In this document: piece by piece, positions 2,751-56,641 of the stretch
Numbering within the stretch: the first letter of the stretch is position 1
Layout of the letters: each line of letters opens with the position of its first letter
Made by a program: the position numbers and the translations under genes
Assembly: GCA_922989275.2 (NCBI GenBank)
Contig: OV277862.1
Span: forward strand, 19,759,543-19,823,542
Length of the DNA stretch: 64,000 nucleotides
Source of the DNA: Gari tellinella
Taxonomy: Eukaryota; Mollusca; Bivalvia; Cardiida; Psammobiidae
Direction: 5' to 3'
Notes under the pieces: generated by a model
What the model was told of the DNA's origin: nothing
What the model saw: only the letters and a program-made list of their open reading frames with translations
The model's database searches: none

Positions 2751-4070
2751 TTAGCTCACCTGAGCCTTAGGCTCAGGGTGAGCTATTGTGATCCCATTCC
2801 GTCCGGCGTCCGTCGTACGTCGTCCGTCGTCCGTTCACATTTTCAAACAACATCACTGACCCTATTTCAACCAAACCTTATCAGAACCTTCAGTGACAAA
2901 GGGGAACGAAATATTGTTCAAAGTTTTTGGCTAGAGTTATTCCCCTTGCTGTGGGACTAGATTTTCTGACATGACTGTATAGACAACTTTTAATGCATAA
3001 GAAAATCTTTAAACATCTTCTTCTCAGAAACCAAAAGGCCCAGACCTTTGATATTTGGTATGTATCATAACCTTATGATCTTCTATCAAGATGATTCAAA
3101 TTTTGACCCTGGGGCCAAAAATGGCCCCGCCCTCGGGCTTATCAGCTTTTCTTAGGAAAACCTTTGAAAGTCTTCTTCTCTGAAACTGTTTGGCTTAGAT
3201 CATTAATATTTGACATGTAGCTTTGCGTTATAGTCCTCTACAAAGATTGTTCAAATTATGACCCATGGGTCAAATTTGGCCCCGCCCCGGGGCTTATCAG
3301 TTTTACATAGACTTATATAGGAAAACCTTAACAAATCATCTTCTCTGAAACTGTAAGGCCCAGATCTTTAAAACTTTACATAAAGCTTTGCCTTATGGTT
3401 CTCTACCAAGATTGTCCAAATTATGACACCTGGGCCAAAAATGGCCCCGCCCTAGGGCTTATCAGTTTTTCATGGGAAAACCTTTAAAAATCTTCTTCTC
3501 TGAAACCGTAAGGTCCAGATCATTTATATTTGACATGTAGCTTTGCGTTATAGTCCTCTACCACGATTGTTCAAATTATGAACCTGGGTCAAAATTTGCC
3601 CTGCCATTGGGCTTATCAGTTTTACATAGACTTATATAGGAAAACCTTTAAAAATCTTCTTCTCTGAAACTGTAAGGCCCATATCTTTAATATTTGACAC
3701 ATAGCTTTTGCTTATGGTCCTCTACCAAGATTGGTAAAATTATGACCCCTGGGCAAAAAATGGCCCCGCCCCTGGGCTTATTAGTTTTTCATAGGAAAAC
3801 CTTTGAAAATCTTCTTCTCTGAAACTGTTTGGCCTAGATCATTAATATTTGACATGTAGCTTTGTGTTATGGTCCTCTACCAAGATTGTTTAAATTATGA
3901 ACCATGGGTCAAATTTGGCCCCGCCCCGGGGCTTATCGTTTTATATAGACTTATATAGGAAAACCTTAAAAAATCTTTTTATAGCTATATATATCACAAT
4001 ATAGTCTTGCCCAGTCAGCTTAGATACAATGTTCTCAGGTGAGCGACTTGTGGGCCATGGCCCTCTTTTT
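2751..4070 (+). mobile_element. Pearl-like element with about six internal repeats of ~160 bp
   Basis: It starts ttagctcacctgag with a small hairpin (cctgagccttaggctcagg), followed by gtccgtcgtccgtcgtccg. It ends ggtgagcgacttgtgggcc with ccctctt. Inside, the landmark tctgaaac recurs at about 3026, 3179, 3344, 3500, 3661 and 3817, a period of 153-165 bp. The layout matches bivalve pearl/Helentron-associated elements; the class is inferred, not proven. Confidence 0.7.
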
Positions 4071-10794: not shown

Positions 10795-12030
10795 TTAGCT
10801 CACCTGAGTTAGCTCAGGGTGAGCTTTTGCAATCCTTGAATGTCCGTCGTCCGTCGTGCGTCGTCCGTCGTGCGGCGTCAACAATTTCAGTGTTTACACT
10901 CTAGAGGCCACAATATTTATCCAATCTTTCTCAAACTTTCTCAGATGGTATATTGCCATTAGAGTTCGGATGAGTTTGATTATGATTGAAATCGGACAAA
11001 TAGGTTATGAGTTATCTACCTTTGAATTGCTGAAAATGCCATATTTAACAGTGTTTACACTCTAGAGGCCACAATATTTATCCAATCTATCTAAAACTTG
11101 CCCAGATTATATATGACCATAAGAGTTTGGATGAGTTCGATTTTGGTTGAAATCGGACCAAAGATAAAGAGTTATCTACCTTTGAATTGCTGAAAATGCC
11201 ATATTTAACAGTGTTTACATTCTAGAGTTCACAATTTTTATTAAACCTATCTCAAACTTGCTCAGATTGTATATGACCATAAGAGTTCAGATGAGTTTGA
11301 TTATGGTTGAAATCAGACTAATAGGTGGAGAGTTATCTACCTTTGAATTGCTGAAAATGCCATATTTAAGGGTGTTTACACTCTGAGGCCACAAATTTTA
11401 TCCAATCTTTATCAAACTTACTCAGATTGTATATTACCATAAGACTTCGGATGAGTTCAATTATGGTTGTAATCGGATCAATAGGTCGAGAGTTATTCAC
11501 CTTTGAATTGCTGAAAATGATATACTAATTAACAGTGTTTACGCTCTAGAGGCCACAATATTTATCCAAGCTCTCTCAAACTTGCTCAGATTGTATATGA
11601 CTATAAGAGTTCGAAAAAGGGTGATTATGGTTGAAATAGGACAAATAGATCAAGAGTTATCTACCTTTGAATTGCTGAAAATGCCATATTTTACAGCGTT
11701 TACACTCGTACAACTACAGTTTTCAATGGATTTTGATTATACTTATATACAAAGTATATAGCTATACGTTCTCGAAGGAGTCCAACTATTGTTGAAATCA
11801 AATCATTGTGGCAATAGTTACCTGCCCTTGATATACTTTGAAATGCTAGAAAAAGGCTTCATTTCTGTATTGTTTAGGCTCTAGTTATCAGCCTTTGGTG
11901 TACTCTACTATACTAGAGTAGGTCGACAAATTTGAATGGATTTAGAATAAAACGGGTGAAATTCAAAGGTAAAGCTATCAGGCTTCATTACAAATGGTGA
12001 ACGATATCAGAGCCTTCAGGCCCTCTTGTT
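10795..12030 (+). mobile_element. Pearl-like element with a different ~160-bp internal repeat
   Basis: Same ends as 2751-4070 (ttagctcacctgag; ccctcttgtttt) and the same gtccgtcgtccgtcgtgc leader. The interior unit is unrelated: gtgtttacactctagagg recurs at about 10894, 11052, 11210, 11371, 11535 and 11697 (period 158-164 bp). 12031-12582 holds nothing recognised. Confidence 0.7.
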
Positions 12031-17724: not shown

Positions 17725-17932
17725 CAGTAGAGGATACATTATTATTTTCCCGTTTAAACGCAAACGCAATGCAATAAACTGTGGAAATTTACTTTTAGAA
17801 ATTTTAACTTAATTTTTCATCTGAGTAGCAAACATTTTGGAGCCTGATCAGACGCCGGGTTACTCGGCGTCTGATCTGAATCCAACCTGTTTACAATGGA
17901 AATAATAGTTTTAGTATATAAATGCGTTTATT
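17725..17932. mobile_element. Family G MITE, right end lost at the splice-site array
   Basis: Starts CAGTAGAGGATACATTATT, has the P1 core at 17827-17892, and ends abruptly in atgcgtttatt. The exon-derived repeat begins at the next base. Confidence 0.8.
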
Positions 17933-18293
17933 AAGCGATGCCCTCGTGTGTAACGGCCATGTGAACTGTTAATGTTTTGTTACTTTTCAGAAGCTTGCAA
18001 TGAGGGCGAGTTTTACTGTGAGAGCATGTGTCTAAGCGATGCCCTCGTGTGTAACGGCCATGTGAACTGTTAATGTTTTGTTACTTTTCAGAAGCTTGCA
18101 ATGAGGGCGAGTTTTACTGTGAGAGCATGTGTCTAAGCGATGCCCTCGTGTGTAACGGCCATGTGAACTGTTAATGTTTTGTTACTTTTCAGAAGCTTGC
18201 AATGAAGGCGAGTTTTACTGTGAGAGCATGTGTCTAAGCGATGCCCTCGTGTGTAACGGCCATGTGAACTGTTAATGTTTTGTTACTTTTCAG
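17933..18293 (+). repeat. Tandem array of the LDLa exon's 3' splice site (101-bp units)
   Basis: There are three full units (17991-18091, 18092-18192, 18193-18293) and a 58-base partial unit at 17933-17990. Each full unit holds the first 78 bases of the LDLa exon, then ttaatgttttgttacttttcag. The units are identical except that the third reads AATGAAGG where the others read AATGAGGG, so the expansion is recent. In each extra copy the frame reads GHVNC and then TAA, right after Cys5. None of them has a convincing donor. The array starts exactly where a family G MITE (17725-17932) loses its right end. Confidence 0.95.
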
Positions 18294-18413
18294 AAGCTTG
18301 CAATGAGGGCGAGTTTTACTGTGAGAGCATGTGTCTAAGCGATGCCCTCGTGTGTAACGGCCATGTGAACTGCCCAAAAACAGAGTCGGACGAGGCTGGC
18401 TGTGCTGCTTCAA
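18294..18413 (+). CDS. Gene 1, exon c: LDL receptor class A domain
   Basis: A 120-bp exon that fits both neighbours in phase (two bases in, one base out, donor gtaagt). It encodes EACNEGEFYCESMC, then LVCNGHVNC and ESDEAGC: six cysteines and the acidic SDE calcium-binding end of an LDLa repeat, about 38 residues. A single LDLa right after a CUB and right before a membrane helix is the Neto order. The exon start is preceded by three complete upstream copies of its own acceptor and first 78 bases, in 101-bp units (17933-18293). Only this last copy runs through Cys6 to a donor, so it is the one that can make a full domain. Confidence 0.85.
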
Positions 18414-18532
18414 GTAAGTTACAAAATGCTACCTCCCTAAAACTGCCCTATGAACAAAGATTCCCTCCGTACAACAATGCTTGCCAAACAAGACACTTAT
18501 GTCCAACTTTTACATTGAATGTTTCATTTTTC

Positions 18533-36549: not shown

Positions 36550-36870
36550 ATGTATTGTCAGTTACGACTGGTGGCAATGTTTGCCATTGCGGTGTCTAAG
36601 TTCGGCAATGCAATGCCTAGTTTTCATTATTCTGAAAGTATCATGACAACTGGAGTAATGGATGATAGTGACGTAGTAGTGGTGGAACAGCAACACGGAA
36701 TAAGCGTGTACCAGTGTTTTGAAGATTGCATCGGAAAGAGTAATTGTGACTTCATAAACTACCACTTGATGGCACATCTGTGTCAACATATTCGAGTGAA
36801 TGGCCCTGTTGATCCGACAGTCGCAAATGCCAAAGGTTTCTTGTATGGGAGCAAAACAGAGTGGAAATTG
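36550..36870 (+). CDS. Gene 2, exon 1: signal peptide and PAN/apple-like domain
   Basis: The ATG at 36550 has a good context (taccATGt). The first 21 residues form a plausible signal peptide (MYCQLRLVAMFAIAVSKFGNA), with cleavage after GNA; the Lys at 17 is slightly unusual. Residues 25-105 look like a PAN/apple module: VYQCFEDCIGKSNC, then INYH and HLC (Cys 56, 60, 66, 78). It reaches GFLYGSKTEW and then a gtatta donor, which is weak but leaves phase 0 for the next exon. A tract cttgacttacag ends seven bases before the ATG, so a non-coding first exon further upstream is possible. A TTAA-bounded element (36213-36465) ends 84 bases before the ATG. The gene makes a secreted protein of 337 residues; PAN modules bind protein or carbohydrate. 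Homologues should be lectin-like proteins of molluscs. Confidence 0.75.
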
Positions 36871-37291: not shown

Positions 37292-37450
37292 GAATCAGGC
37301 ACTTACCAATACGCCATCTTACGGCAACTCAGTAACGGACTGGTAAAGTTAGGACTTAAATATTAGAGATTACACTGTATAAACAAACGTTATGATTTCA
37401 CACTTTACTTAAGTCCATGGCTTAAAGACAAAAAATCCTCTAACTTTCAG

Positions 37451-37529
37451 GAAGGTTACCCAGGTTGTAACTCATGTTCCGACAACGAGGTGTGCAATAT
37501 GTCTAATGGTACTTCATGTGATAAATCTG
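37451..37529 (+). CDS. Gene 2, exon 2: small Cys-rich (EGF-like) module
   Basis: A 79-base exon between ctaactttcag and gtaagt, phase 0 in and phase 1 out. It encodes EGYPGCNSCSDNEVCNMSNG followed by TSCDKS: four Cys in a short spacing (C-x2-C-x5-C-x6-C) that resembles part of an EGF-like or lectin-hinge module. The exon's last 50 or so bases and its donor are repeated about fifteen times directly downstream (37530-38660). The first donor is the only one that keeps the frame open, because 23 bases past it the read-through frame meets TGA (after KLIMFRQ). Confidence 0.7.
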
Positions 37530-38660
37530 GTAAGTTAATCATGTTCCGACAATGAGATGTGCAATATGACTAATGGTACTTCATGTGATAAAAATGGTAA
37601 GTTACTCATGTTCTGACAATGAGATGTGCAATATGTCTAATGGTACTTCATGTGATAAATCTGGTAAGTTACTCATGTTCCTACAATGAGATGTACAATA
37701 TGACTAATGGTACTTCATGTGATAAAAATGGTAAGTTACTCATGTTCTGACAATGAGATGTGCAATATGTCTAATGGTACTTCATGTGATAAATCTGGTA
37801 AGTTACTCATGTTCCTACAATGAGATGTGCATTATGACTAATGGTACTTCATGTGATAAAAATGGTAAGTTACTCATGTTCTGACAATGAGATGTGCAAT
37901 ATGTCTAATGGTACTTCATGTGATAAATCTGGTAAGTTACTCATGTTCCTACAATGAGATGTACAATATGACTAATGGTACTTCATGTGATAAAAATGGT
38001 AAGTGATTCATGTTCTGACAATGAGATGTGCAATATGACTAATGGTACTTCATGGGATAAAAATGGTAAGTTATTCATGTTCTGACAATGAGATGTGCAA
38101 TATGTCTAATGGTACTCCATGTGATAAATCTAGTAAGTTACTCATGTTCCGACAATGAGATGTACAATATGACTAATGGTACTTCATGTGATAAAATGGT
38201 AAGTTACTCATGTGTCAACAATGAGATGTGCAATATGTCTAATGGTAAAACATGTGATAAATCTGGTAAGTTACTCATGTTCCGACAACGATGTGCGCAA
38301 TATGTTTAACCGGTAATACATGTGATAAAACTGGTTCCAATAATTATGTAAAAGTGGAAATGCATGTGGTAAAACTGGTGAGTTACTGACGTTCCGACAA
38401 CGATGTGTGCAATATGTCTAATGTAAATGCATGTTAAAAAAAATTGTAACTTACTCATGGTCCGACAACAATATTACCTTATGGTTAGACATGTGATAAC
38501 ATAGGTAAGTTACTCATGTTCCGACAATGAGATGTACAATTATTATGTCTTACCATAATGTATGTGATAAAACCGGTTGCAATAATTATGTCAATCGGGT
38601 AATGCATGCGGTAAAACTGGTAAGTTACTCATGTTCCGGCAACGATGTAGGCAATTTGTC
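37530..38660 (+). repeat. Tandem array of the exon 2 5' splice site (67-bp units)
   Basis: Donor GT positions after the first (37530) fall at 37597, 37664, 37731, 37798, 37865, 37932, 37999, 38066, 38133, 38199 and 38266: an almost constant 67 bp. Copies then decay, with usable gtgagt/gtaagt sites at 38378, 38505 and 38620. The units mostly alternate two variants (aaatctg and aaaaatg before gtaagt), which implies growth in 134-bp pairs. Each unit still reads as the end of the Cys-rich exon (CNM-NGTSCDK). The period is not a multiple of three, so use of later donors would shift the frame. Confidence 0.95.
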
Positions 38661-38814
38661 TGGTCAGGGTTATAATCTAAATACTTCAAACATGTACATC
38701 ATGGCATGAAAGCGTATTTACTGTTCTTCTGATCAAGCTAACTTGTCAGTTTTATCAAATAAGTTACCGTTTGACATATTTAACACATTGTTGTCGGAAC
38801 GTGTTCAATAAGTC

Positions 38815-39395
38815 AAACGGCGTCTGGTCTAAATTCAAGCTGTTTGTCACTCGGCATTATGTTATTTTCTGTCAAAATGTCCAATATGTGACTTTGAGGA
38901 AAACAACAGAAGAAAATTTACGATAGTGCAGCAGTGAAAAGTTTGGACAAATGCCTTGTTTAGGGAACAGCGTCAAGCAGTGTTGTAAGGAAACAGTGTA
39001 AACTCAGACCAGAGAGCTCATAAACAGCACTGTTTGTTATTTTGCAATACATTGTAAAACTCAACCCTAAACGGTTTAAAAATGAGAGATTTCATTAGCC
39101 AAACGAAAGTAGGGTTTTACTGAAGCTTTCAGCGATTTTGCTATTTGCTGAACCCTTTACTCCATAGACTGTTCTCGTATTGGATATTTATAAGTGACCG
39201 CTTATAGCAGGTTGAAAGTAAAGGAGAATGCACCTTAATGTGCATCCTGCTTTACTTTCAGCCTGATTCAAGTTACCATCTTCTAGAAAATATTTCTTAT
39301 GCTGTATATTCATGACTGTGTAAAGTTTAACTATTTTCTTCAATGGAGGAATAAATCAGATGCGTAAAAAGGGTATTTATGGGGCAATGGGTTAA
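38815..39395. mobile_element. Family A fragment and family C element in gene 2 intron 2
   Basis: 38815-38995 is the middle of family A. Near 39149-39395 is a C copy (hairpin gcaggttgaaagtaaagg/ag and inverse; end ggggcaatgggttaa). 39396-39699 holds nothing recognised. Confidence 0.6.
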
Positions 39396-39699
39396 ACAAT
39401 CATATGCTTGACACACCTTCAGTTTAGATGTTAGTACAGAGGAACATTACAATAGTATCATAACATTAGTTAAACAAAACAGTATTGGATTCCTGGGGCA
39501 TTAGAAAATTCTTCTCGCCTTGTTGATTTTACCAGCCGGGACCATCCATGGGTTGTTTTCATACTATTAAAGTATGCCCTTCCGGGAACATGTCATCAGC
39601 ATTTTGTTTTACTGTAGAAAAGTCAATACTTATGTCAAAAAGTGGGATTCCTGATCAAAACACCATTTTACTTCTACGGGGGACTATATTTACCCCTTC

Positions 39700-40570
39700 A
39701 CTGCAATGACCGAATCAATTTTAAACAATTGTCGTCTACTTCTAGTTCTCAAATTAAAATTTTAGGTATTTTGACATAAGAAATATTGGAATAAGTGACA
39801 AACATTTTGAATCCAGATCTGGCACCGCGTTACGCGTTGACCCACTAATCTGGGTCTATACTGTTTGCCTAGGACATGTGTACTCTCAACATGTTTAACT
39901 ATTTGTAAATGACGACTATACTCGTCGCTAGGTGCCAAAACATTAATGGCATTTCAAGTAACGGTAACTGATACCGAAAGACACAGTGTTAATGGTCATT
40001 GAAAAACAACCCCGCCGACATTGACAAAGTCGGCAATAATATTTGCACACAAATCAAAATGTTCTTATTGATTTCAATTTCTAGCTCAGAAAGTGAATTG
40101 CTTTTAAAAACTTGTTTGCTAACCTGAAAAACAATAATAGGCTATTGGTACGCTTATGTAGAGCTACATGTATTGGAATTTCGAAAATATTGAATTCAGA
40201 TAGCGCACAAAAGTTTGAGAAAAAAAACAACAACAACTTGACACACAGAGTCTGATAAGGATCTAAACTGTTAAGACACGTTTCTGTGTTAATTGGATTT
40301 AAAATTGAAAAAAGAACACCCGTAAAATGCAGCTTAAACGTGGAAAATATCACTTCTAGGGTTGATTAATTCCAGTTTCTAATAAAGTGTGGTCCATTTT
40401 TGACAAATAAGGAACTTTTCTGCAATATAAAGCAAATTGGCAAAAATGTGCAGATTTAAGGAGCCCTCTGAACAGGGTCTATACTTTTTGTAAATGGCAA
40501 GCGTACTCTTCTCATATACACTGTTTGTAAATGACGAGTAAATACAATGTACTCGTCGCTAGGGTTTAAT
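39700..40570. mobile_element. Worn D-like and B-like remnants
   Basis: Ttaccccttcactgcaatg at about 39692, half P1 core at 39803-39868, and B-type ends at 39900-39935 and 40500-40570 (gtactcgtcgctagggttt). 40571-40970 holds nothing recognised beyond the phrase shared with 34533. Confidence 0.5.
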
Positions 40571-40970
40571 GTATTCATATTGCATCTTTTTCGACTTTTT
40601 TTTTAAAATAGATACTTACATGTAGGAGTCGAGGACACAATGTACCGAAAATAAGATACGACATTGCACACTTGCAATCTCACATAATAGTTTCGGCGTC
40701 TTCACCAAAGTTGTAAAACAGAATTTTTTTTTTACCTCTTACGGCATTCCGTAATATGTCCGAGTAGTTAAAGCAATGGAAAATTCTAAAATATAAAGAT
40801 TCAGTGAAGTTTCTTTAGAATGTTTTGTAGCGACCATATTTGTTAAATGCCATATGCACGATAATGCCACAAATTCGCTCTTATTTGAGTAGTTTTTCTT
40901 TTGTTTTACAAATAGACCTTTTGTTTTTCAGTCTCTTAAAGCTACAGTTTTAATCTAGAATATATATATA

Positions 40971-41167
40971 CAGTAAAACCTCTTTATTACGGACACTAAA
41001 AGAAGGCTATTTGATGGTGTAAAATACAGGTGACAGCTTAAAGCAGTGTGACAGTAAAACAAAAAGGAGCTTTCTGTTTTACTGCCACCTTGCTTTAAGC
41101 AGTGTCACCTGTCATAAACACCTGTTTATTAACTTAATTTAGTGGTCCTAATAGAGAGGTTTTACTG
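40971..41167. mobile_element. Family P MITE, intact
   Basis: TA on both sides; CAGTAAAACCTCTTTATTAC to gtcctaatagagaggtttta. It ends 78 bases before gene 2 exon 3. Confidence 0.85.
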
Positions 41168-41245
41168 TATTTGATTATTTTTTATTTCATTTCTGAATTG
41201 ATTATTACTTATGTATATTTACTATACATGTATTCCTTCAAACAG

Positions 41246-41398
41246 GATGCGGGGTGCCACCATATGTACCATCCTCAGTGCTGTTTGGTAACACCTTTAC
41301 AATAAATAGTCACGTGGTGTATTCCCAGTCTGTCTCTGGTGTTACGATGACGTATGGCTGTTATCCTAACGGAACGTGGCTCATGGACTCCATGAAAG
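41246..41398 (+). CDS. Gene 2, exon 3: sushi/CCP-like module
   Basis: The exon follows ccttcaaacag; G+GA completes the split codon. It encodes CGVPPYVPSSVLFGNTF, then VYSQSVSGVTMTYGCYPNG and TWLMDS. CG-P-P at the start, a Y-G-C and a terminal NGTW are the landmarks of a CCP/sushi domain, although the last Cys is not seen, so the module is short or atypical. The donor is gtacac, and a repeat shared with gene 1 starts two bases into the intron. Exon length 153, phase 1 to phase 1, which is the usual symmetric class for exon-shuffled extracellular modules. Confidence 0.7.
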
Positions 41399-44536: not shown

Positions 44537-44691
44537 TGCCGCCGACGACAACAACAACTTCTACAACCACTACCACTACAATAGCCACGACATCGAGTGG
44601 TACATTCGTAACGACCGGCTGGGTTGAACGACCTGGAAGTGATTATACATATATGGTTGTAACAACTCCCACCGACTGGCACACTGCTAGG
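44537..44691 (+). CDS. Gene 2, exon 4: Thr-rich linker and start of the lectin domain
   Basis: The acceptor is tgctttcaacag and the donor gttagt. It encodes VPPTTTTTSTTTTTTIATTS, a mucin-like linker likely to be O-glycosylated, then TGWVERPGSDYTYMVVTTP and TDWHTAR, which begins the C-type lectin fold. The phase runs from 1 to 0 and joins DYC in the next exon. The exon is tightly bracketed: an H-type element ends about 22 bases upstream, and a family A MITE begins 21 bases downstream. Confidence 0.7.
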
Positions 44692-48797: not shown

Positions 48798-49861
48798 TAT
48801 ACAATAATTTTCTACTCGCATATCCAAATATTTTTACTTACAATGACAGTTTCGGCACTCCATTGGAGTGCCTTCTTCAGACTGTGAACTATACCGTTGG
48901 TGACGTCATGAGTTTTGTTTACTACTGGTCATTTTTCCCGTAGTAAACAGCGGCCGGTAGATGGGGCTCATTAGATATCCCCCCCTCGTCCCTGTTCATG
49001 ACTTTGTCCTCCTGTACAATGCATAACGATTCTCTTAACCTCCTCAGGGATGTATTATTCTCTTTGTCTATCACTTTTACACCCTCCCAGTCTATAACAT
49101 GGTTGTGTCTGGCAATATGATTTGTCACTGCACTCGCATGTTCTGTAGACTGGGATGCCTTGTGCTCTGCCCTTGTGAACACTTGTGGACAATTATCCGA
49201 GTCTTTTGTATGTTCTTTTATCCTGGTCTCGAGCTTTCTACCTGTCTCACCGATGTATGCCGCATTACAGTTTTTGCACGGTATGCGATAAACACATCCA
49301 CATACTTCCTCGGTTTTTGTTTTGTCTTTTGGGTGCACCAGTGCTTTCCTAAGGGTGTTTATGGGCCTCATAGCCACACTTATATCATGTTTACGAAACA
49401 CCCTCGCCAACGCCTCTGATACATTTTTAACATATGGGATAACCACATTCCCTTTATAGACTATAATTGTCCACAAGTGTTCACAAGGGCAGAGCACAAG
49501 GCATCCCAGTCTACAGAACATGCGAGTGCAGTGACAAATCATATTGCCAGACACAACCATGTTATAGACTGGGAGGGTGTAAAAGTGATAGACAAAGAGA
49601 ATAATACATCCCTGAGGAGGTTAAGAGAATCGTTATGCATTGTACAGGAGGACAAAGTCATGAACAGGGACGAGGGGGGATATCTAATGAGCCCCATCTA
49701 CCGGCCGCTGTTTACTACGGGAAAAATGACCAGTAGTAAACAAAACTCATGACGTCACCAACGGTATAGTTCACAGTCTGAAGAAGGCACTCCAATGGAG
49801 TGCCGAAACTGTCATTGTAAGTAAAAATATTTGGATATGCGAGTAGAAAATTATTGTATAA
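48798..49861. mobile_element. Head-to-head pair of Penelope-like fragments
   Basis: Left copy on the minus strand (48798-49463). A 5'-shortened right copy on the plus strand (about 49464-49861) is the near-perfect inverse of 48798-49197. The 266-base segment between the arms is unique to the left copy and carries the nuclease core. A 13-base repeat, actattgtatgtt, flanks the pair at 48786 and 49897 and may be the target duplication, although 35 unexplained bases lie between the right arm and its copy. Confidence 0.85.
48922..49463 (-). pseudogene. GIY-YIG nuclease end of a Penelope-like retroelement
   Basis: The minus-strand peptide has VFRKHDISVAMRP, GCVYRIPCKNCNAAYIGETG, RKLETRIKEH and VTNHIARHNHVIDW. 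The Y-x-I-P-C-x2-C-x4-YIGET-GR-x3-R-x2-EH pattern is that of the C-terminal endonuclease of Penelope elements. No reverse transcriptase is present, so the copy is dead on its own. The open frame continues upstream to 49560 through antisense of the partner copy; that part is not real protein sequence. Confidence 0.8.
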
Positions 49862-49926: not shown

Positions 49927-50165
49927 GTTTGGTAGAGGGCGCTAATCTGGCTAGCTACTGGGCTGGAGCTACAGATGAGGTCAGCGAGGGTACGTGGAAG
50001 TGGGTTCTGACGTCGTTAGCCTGGGGCTACGACAATTTTGATGGGGGTGAACCGTACGGGTATTCAACAGACTGTCTTCTAATCACGCCAGGCGATCAAT
50101 TCACATGGACTGACCAAGCATGTTCTCAGTCTCATGGATTTGTGTGCGAACAATTAAATCTATAA
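49927..50165 (+). CDS. Gene 2, exon 6: C-terminal half of the C-type lectin domain
   Basis: The acceptor is gtttctgcttctag; G+GT completes a Gly. It encodes LVEGANLASYWAGATDEVSE, then GTWKWV, GGEPYGYSTDCLLI, FTWTDQAC and HGFVCEQLNL before TAA at 50163. WAGATD, EGTWKW, DC, W-x-D-x-x-C and FVCE are the lectin-fold hallmarks, with Cys 308, 324 and 332 of 337. The calcium/sugar motifs are off-consensus: EPY where EPN or QPD is usual, and WTD where WND is usual. Ordinary mannose or galactose binding is therefore doubtful. The exon starts 65 bases after the right arm of the Penelope insertion. The six exons sum to 1014 nt, exactly 338 codons, which supports the model. Confidence 0.85.
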
Positions 50166-55788: not shown

Positions 55789-56566
55789 TACTTAGAACAA
55801 ACATACATGTATTTCAAAACTAAAGCTTTAAAAGAAGTATGTATGTTTGATTTAAGCAAGCTTTGAGAATCGAACGCAGAAATAAAGCAGACCATTTTGG
55901 GAATGTACTAGTTGGAAGTGGAAGAATCCGACGACCATATGTCGGACTTCTATCCATTGATGCACTATCCCCTTAAAGGAATGGTGCAAAGGAAAAAAAC
56001 TGAGTGACTTACAGGTATAACCAAGCACTCAAAGAATCCGAGTGACTTACAGACATAGCCAAGCACTCAAAGAAGCCGAGTGACTTACAGACATAGTCAG
56101 GCACTCGATTGCTGCTCTTGTAAAAGAGCAGCAAACGCACAGTCTATTTCACCCCGTCGGTGCAAGACCCGTGCATACAAATACAAATGACACCAAAGGC
56201 GTCAGTGATTACCCTTACGGGAATCTATTCAAAGAACGCAAGTATTGCACTTTTCAATGAAATTGGCAGAAGGGAAATTTATGACATCTTAAATAAAACA
56301 TTTCTAACATTCAGCAAGTTAAAATAAATTCTGAAAGTAATACAAAAAGCTTTTAAATTCACATGGTTACGTGGAAATATATCATAATAATTAATTCTTC
56401 ATTCAATCTTATACTAGCTGTGCTATCTGAATTAATTTTAATGAAAATTATAAAACGTACATCAGTCGTTTTGTACTCCGTATCGCCACTGGTCCTAGAT
56501 TAGCATATGAATAAAAGGTGTTAGGATCCCAGCACCCAGCTCATACATGTACCACTATTCTACCTA

Positions 56567-56641
56567 AGTGCTGATAGCTCAGTCGGTAGTGTGGTTGACT
56601 AACAATCAAAAGGTCATAGGTTCGAGTCTCATTCGAATCAA
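56567..56641 (+). tRNA. tRNA-Val-like sequence, probably pseudogene
   Basis: Gatagctcagtcggtagtg (A box), loop with CTAACAA (anticodon AAC), GGTTCGAGTCT (B box) and a following T run. The T arm pairs with one mismatch and one wobble, but the acceptor stem pairs poorly. A decayed tRNA or SINE head is likely. Confidence 0.4.

Follow-up and report, generated by a model that had tools for sequence, protein, structure and literature searches.

Splice sites that are carried along in tandem repeats have been described in several settings, and the closest to the one reported here is the VNTR of intron 18 of human ABCA7, in which a tandem repeat at the end of an exon likewise includes the exon's own donor GT (PMC5954066; this and the other papers are drawn on in excerpt). 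Its unit is a 25-bp intronic sequence present in about 12 to 427 copies and polymorphic in length, and RNA data exist for it: the canonical donor is the exon-side one, and retention of one unit stands at 2 ± 1% and is unaffected by VNTR length (PMC5954066). Retention of one unit shifts the frame, and such transcripts go up when cycloheximide blocks NMD; longer arrays show lower expression and more skipping of exon 19 (PMC5954066). The polyubiquitin gene UBC also has tandem splice sites that delimit its repeat units, and there each site can serve in either role, donor or acceptor, while the count of ubiquitin monomers changes with splicing (PMC10809524). According to the excerpts, internal tandem repeats at the exon-intron boundaries of human duplicated genes, which are exon-border repeats as here, change splicing (PMC2812944), and intron gain in Drosophila by tandem duplication of exonic sequence involves the same kind of duplication (PMC2891723); both can yield new introns. 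The IR1 repeat of Epstein-Barr virus, with its W1 and W2 exons, is a natural repeat with splice sites in each unit, as here, but there whole exon pairs with both types of site are repeated and spliced together (PMC12451641).

The locus that we describe lies in the window, by which we mean the whole analysed stretch of 64,000 nucleotides from the bivalve Gari tellinella, and it resembles ABCA7 in that a repeat spans an exon-intron border, that of exon 2 and intron 2 of a gene here called gene 2, with the donor repeated in it. The unit is 67 bp long and holds about 58 bp of exon, and the array is known here from the sequence of one assembly. In contrast to UBC, the only splice sites of the regular units here are donors, and every extension runs into a stop: 67 bp is not a multiple of 3, there are stops in the copies, and the regular unit has no acceptor-like AG (polypyrimidine score, py, of at least 0.56). 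Constructs designed in the laboratory so that 5' splice sites compete in pairs, reportedly those of Hodson et al. 2012 and Eperon et al. 1993 and 2000, also place several U1-binding donors before one acceptor, whereas here about fifteen natural sites stand in one repeat. The first-pass annotation had called the array an unusual natural test of how U1 chooses a site; it is indeed an array of mostly near-equal donors, but as such a test it is not the first, the ABCA7 VNTR including its exon's donor and having RNA data. Given the ABCA7 and UBC precedents, the array is a variant and not a new category. What is new, within the open-licence literature, is that each unit brings exon sequence together with a mostly near-consensus donor and that the neighbouring gene carries a mirror array of acceptors. 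The features of gene 2 and its array are as follows, in window positions.

36550..36870, plus strand: exon 1, an ORF with a signal-peptide-like start (judged by eye) and a PAN domain.
37451..37529, plus strand: exon 2, Cys-rich and 79 nt long, encoding EGYPGCNSCSDNEVCNMSNGTSCDKS and ending in base 1 of a Gly codon.
37530..37538, plus strand: first 5' splice site, GTAAGTTAA, putatively the productive one.
37530, 37597, 37664, 37731, 37798, 37865, plus strand: donors 1 to 6 of the array.
37932, 37999, 38066, 38133, 38199, 38266, plus strand: donors 7 to 12 of the array.
38378 (GTGAGT), 38505, 38620, plus strand: donors 13 to 15 of the array.
37540..38275, plus strand: eleven further 67-bp copies (donors 37597 to 38266).
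38276..38661, plus strand: older, decayed copies with donors 38378, 38505 and 38620.
38739..38800, minus strand: inverted, diverged copy of the unit, its own donor lost.
41246..41398, plus strand: exon 3, start of a sushi-like module; its acceptor is that of the array-bearing intron.
44537..44691, plus strand: exon 4 (model), Thr-rich linker followed by the first part of a C-type lectin domain.
49927..50165, plus strand: last exon (model), completing the C-type lectin domain (Lectin_C, E=5.7e-8).

All modelled exons of gene 2 are open and the phases fit for exons 1 to 4; one short exon downstream of exon 4 is probably missing from the model. Exon 2 is bordered by an AG at 37449-37450 and the GT at 37530, its end forms copy 1 of the array, and the intron that bears the array is 3.7 kb long. 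The PAN_1 match of exon 1 (E=4e-4) falls just under the Pfam cut-off, and the donor of that exon, TTG/GTATTA, is weak (score -4.1). Searches of protein databases with exons 1-3 returned no match, with 0 of 7 candidates at E<=0.001 in one and 0 of 50 candidates at E<=10 in a second. On the minus strand at 48922-49620 there is an ORF with a GIY-YIG-like stretch (VYRIPCKNCNAAYIGETGRKLETRIKEH), which may be a retroelement remnant.

Fifteen donors of the form GTRAGT stand on the 67-bp unit between 37530 and 38620 on the plus strand, and each full unit joins about 58 bp of terminal exon 2 sequence to about 9 bp of intron start; TRF calls a 67-bp array at 37470-38335 with 12.9 copies. The spacing of the donors is 67 bp up to 38266 (one interval is 66) and irregular beyond, the first 12 copies being regular and the remaining ones decayed, some with internal deletions and with 112-127 bp from donor to donor. 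This bears out the first-pass annotation, which had described about fifteen tandem 5' splice sites after one small exon, with the exon end and its donor repeated every 67 bp to 38266 and as decayed copies to 38620. From copy 2 to copy 8 the units alternate in a 134-bp dimer structure; no difference separates copies 3, 5 and 7, and dimers 2-4 match at 130-132 of 134 positions, which implies recent homogenisation. This dimer structure, the inverted copy and the acceptor array of the neighbouring gene are additions to the first-pass annotation.

With up to three mismatches allowed, the donor motif matches 15 times in the window, 14 times in the array on the plus strand and once in the inverted copy on the minus strand, against a mean of 1.39 and a maximum of 4 in shuffled sequence. 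By a simple PWM, 14 of the 15 donors rank within the top 0.5% of the window's GTs, and the same 14 are predicted to pair with U1 at -9.1 to -10.5 kcal/mol, with the first donor (37530) at -9.1. The exception is the donor at 38133, which has an A at -1, falls below both cut-offs and is predicted to pair with U1 at -5.6 kcal/mol. Predicted U1 pairing is thus near-equal for 14 of 15 donors, and every regular donor comes with a copy of its exon context, so that what mainly distinguishes them is position.

A control sample of 200 kb, drawn from this genome as 20 stretches of 10 kb on contigs C1-C10, gave 21 TRF rows with a period of at least 30, none of which held GTRAGT three or more times. In the window itself a 38-bp repeat at 56002-56106 (2.8 copies) has three GTAAGT on its minus strand; it showed no sign of an exon and was rejected as a further tandem-donor case, so that donor-bearing repeats can also arise by chance. 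Rfam gives a weak match to tRNA (32.3 bits; gathering threshold 29) at 56568-56640 on the plus strand, where ARAGORN found no tRNA; this is perhaps a tRNA-derived repeat. Arrays of units of about 155-160 bp, also as dimers of about 320 bp, lie at 2997-3977 and 10888-11707, and one sampled locus (L009) holds a 319-bp array at 251-1311.

None of the 32 AGs between 37540 and 38670 passes a first crude cut-off for acceptor likeness; at the value of the real exon 2 acceptor (py 0.5625) a single one qualifies, at 38489 in the decayed part, and at py 0.5 there are four. The regular 67-bp unit has no acceptor-like AG at py >=0.56, and introns within the array, or intron gain of the kind found at human boundary repeats and in Drosophila, were rejected on this ground. 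The array is real and derived, and here an existing intron has been lengthened.

Beyond 37529 the frame gives GKLIMFRQ and then a TGA at 37553..37555 (+), which is met from any donor after the first. The first-pass annotation had placed a TGA after KLIMFRQ, as seen, and had held that only the first donor keeps the frame. The latter is right in effect, but not for reasons of phase: the exons ending at 37731, 37932, 38133, 38199 and 38505 have the same length modulo 3 as that of the first donor, and it is the in-frame TGA that excludes the later donors. A stop codon upstream of further splice junctions is expected to send a transcript to NMD. As several junctions of the gene model lie downstream of 37553, NMD would be the likelier fate of later-donor transcripts, rather than the secreted PAN-only protein that had been proposed.

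That the first donor gives the full protein is supported by the relatives of gene 2 in its own genome. A query with the protein model of the PAN domain, exon 2 and exon 3 gave 40 rows, 10 of them in the window and 30 elsewhere; among the outside rows 20 keep to one frame through both exon junctions, 18 of these without an internal stop (E from 4e-7 to 0.36, many of them weak). Eight of the 30 outside places were fetched. In seven the frame is open across the position of the exon 2/3 junction, six of these from the PAN domain on (L033 starts later), and the exon-2-like region runs directly into a sushi-like exon-3 region. A C-x4-C motif, found by either of two patterns, is present in all seven; in gene 2 it straddles the first-donor junction, with the first Cys in exon 2 and the second in exon 3. 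The strict pattern CxxC...C...C-x4-C occurs in five of the seven, the exceptions being L031, with an extra residue in the spacing, and L035, which lacks the first part. Judged from these paralogs, the join of 37529 to 41246 is the one that gives the family protein, in keeping with the earlier claim that only the first donor gives the full protein. The paralogs are intronless at this point and keep the protein of the first-donor junction, which implies that the exon is older and the array derived. Exon 3 of gene 2 is without one sushi Cys that all seven have. At the eighth place (L036) the PAN match ends at the exon-1 boundary, and no exon 2 was found within the fetched 5 kb; four adjacent matches to the PAN exon of gene 2 at G000 C17:7926776-7990449 all end at residue 107, which is the same boundary.

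The unit itself matches its own 1.6-Gb genome at least 14 times, the search skipping very common words so that counts are lower bounds, and all the matches lie at one locus. A dispersed satellite or transposon-borne repeat was rejected on the strength of this single matching locus, with the same lower bound on the counts, and a satellite as the source of the exon was rejected because of the single locus and because the exon motif is kept in the paralogs. Selection to keep the extra donors was looked for in the six older copies, where changes in the donor block number 4 of 60 against 42 of 303 in the rest (p=0.14, with the analyst's own guess at the older unit as reference); there is no clear sign of it, and it was set aside as not significant.

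We therefore regard the array as probably a passive intronic minisatellite, and to this reading in full, with exon definition keeping the first donor dominant, we assign a probability of roughly 0.7. The seed would have been a tandem duplication across the border, taking in ~58 nt at the end of exon 2 and ~9 nt at the start of intron 2; the resulting minisatellite, inside the intron, would have been amplified and homogenised by unequal exchange or slippage, most recently as 134-bp dimers, while older copies on the 3' side decayed. In the pre-mRNA U1 could pair at 14 near-equal sites and at a fifteenth, weaker one. The first site would be the source of productive mRNA, being the sole one to rebuild the family protein and also the one that makes the shortest exon (79 nt): the exon's own acceptor at 37451 would pair with the nearest donor, as exon definition predicts, and a small leak to later donors would end at the TGA and in NMD. 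We infer the expression of gene 2, its donor usage, NMD and the mechanism of duplication from the sequence.

Gene 1, which encodes a CUB-LDLa-TM protein, offers a mirror image of this arrangement:

17932..18372, plus strand: array of a 101-bp unit in 4.4 copies, 99% alike, called by TRF.

Each unit holds a polypyrimidine tract and an AG, followed by the beginning of the LDLa exon, making four tandem acceptors with exon starts at 17991, 18092, 18193 and 18294. Only the last leads to an open exon (120 nt, to the donor at 18414), the earlier three running into a TAA. The partial protein of gene 1 is 60% identical to a Dreissena polymorpha protein, the LDLa stretch of which aligns over its full length with the last copy only; the CUB and LDLa matches are under the Pfam cut-offs, and their order agrees with the Dreissena protein. 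In both arrays, the coding splice site is the one nearest the exon's other end. Two of nine tandem repeats span junctions (P about 0.012 under random placement), which a purely passive origin leaves unexplained; the test is post hoc, uses 16 hand-listed junctions (three off by one base, three that are alignment ends and two that are ORF limits) and is to be read lightly.

Several observations can be set against the preferred passive reading. SRSF1 can favour the intron-proximal of two donors (PMC5585400, in excerpt), a preference that here could pick a decoy and would count against our explanation. That preference, the finding that one pre-mRNA can hold two U1 (PMC8724738, in excerpt), the near-equal predicted U1 pairing of 14 of 15 donors with nearly the same upstream exon sequence in the regular copies, and the TGA met from every later donor all fit a competition in which U1 fills most sites, later donors often win and copy number sets the loss through TGA and NMD, the array lowering expression. 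The lower expression and increased exon 19 skipping that go with a longer VNTR in ABCA7 also speak for it, though they come by a route other than unit retention (PMC5954066, in excerpt). We think such a rheostat unlikely: one-unit retention in ABCA7 is constant at about 2% at whatever length, and the extra donors here are not significantly conserved above the rest of the unit. RNA opening as the cause of first-donor choice is not supported by predicted folding, in which the local opening of donor 1 is 0.008 and that of the others 0.0003-0.12. As RNA, the inverted copy has 79% complementarity to the stretch of exon 2 and the first donor, and its predicted duplex with exon 2 (-67.9 kcal/mol) is stronger than those for the other copies (-36.2 to -61.4) and for shuffled sequences (mean -22, lowest -41.4 kcal/mol). 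Donor 1 is predicted to be unpaired at 0.02 with the inverted-copy stretch and at 0.50 without it; the hairpin, if formed, would mask donor 1, against the passive reading. We consider it quite improbable that the array is a copy-number-dependent splicing switch, in which productive mRNA would make up a share set by how many near-equal donors there are, with the inverted copy able to cover the true donor; if that were true, the donor array and the acceptor array of gene 1 would be a natural matched pair for testing the nearest-site rule of exon definition.

It is distinctly unlikely that gene 2 is decaying or unexpressed, leaving the array unconstrained and the choice of donor irrelevant. The weak exon-1 donor, the missing sushi Cys, the PAN match just under its cut-off and the empty database searches point that way, against which stand the open modelled exons, the fitting phases of exons 1-4 and the conservation of the motif at the first-donor junction. 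U1 protects pre-mRNA against premature polyadenylation. The uncut extra donors might recruit U1, either to enhance recognition of exon 2 or as a shield against premature polyadenylation in the 3.7-kb intron, and since the exon-1 donor is weak such help could be useful; when a consensus 5' splice site was added at the 3' end of a pre-mRNA, both splicing and 3'-site recruitment went up (PMC8724738, in excerpt). The older copies, however, decay without significant sparing of their donors (p=0.14), and we hold this role to be very improbable. Least probable of all is an assembly artefact in the copy number or the existence of the array: near-identical dimers are easily miscounted, but the contig is of chromosome scale (85.9 Mb, C7) and among the copies some have private differences, some are decayed and one is inverted.

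The regular copies differ mainly in position, and junction counts would thus show, with few confounders, how position affects the choice of donor, while the four-acceptor array of gene 1 poses the mirror question for 3' sites. In ABCA7, array length goes with expression, by a different route (PMC5954066, in excerpt). If exon definition alone keeps both genes working, this would account for the tolerance of genomes towards repeats in which splice sites are duplicated; if it is not sufficient, copy number would offer a simple route to altered gene output.
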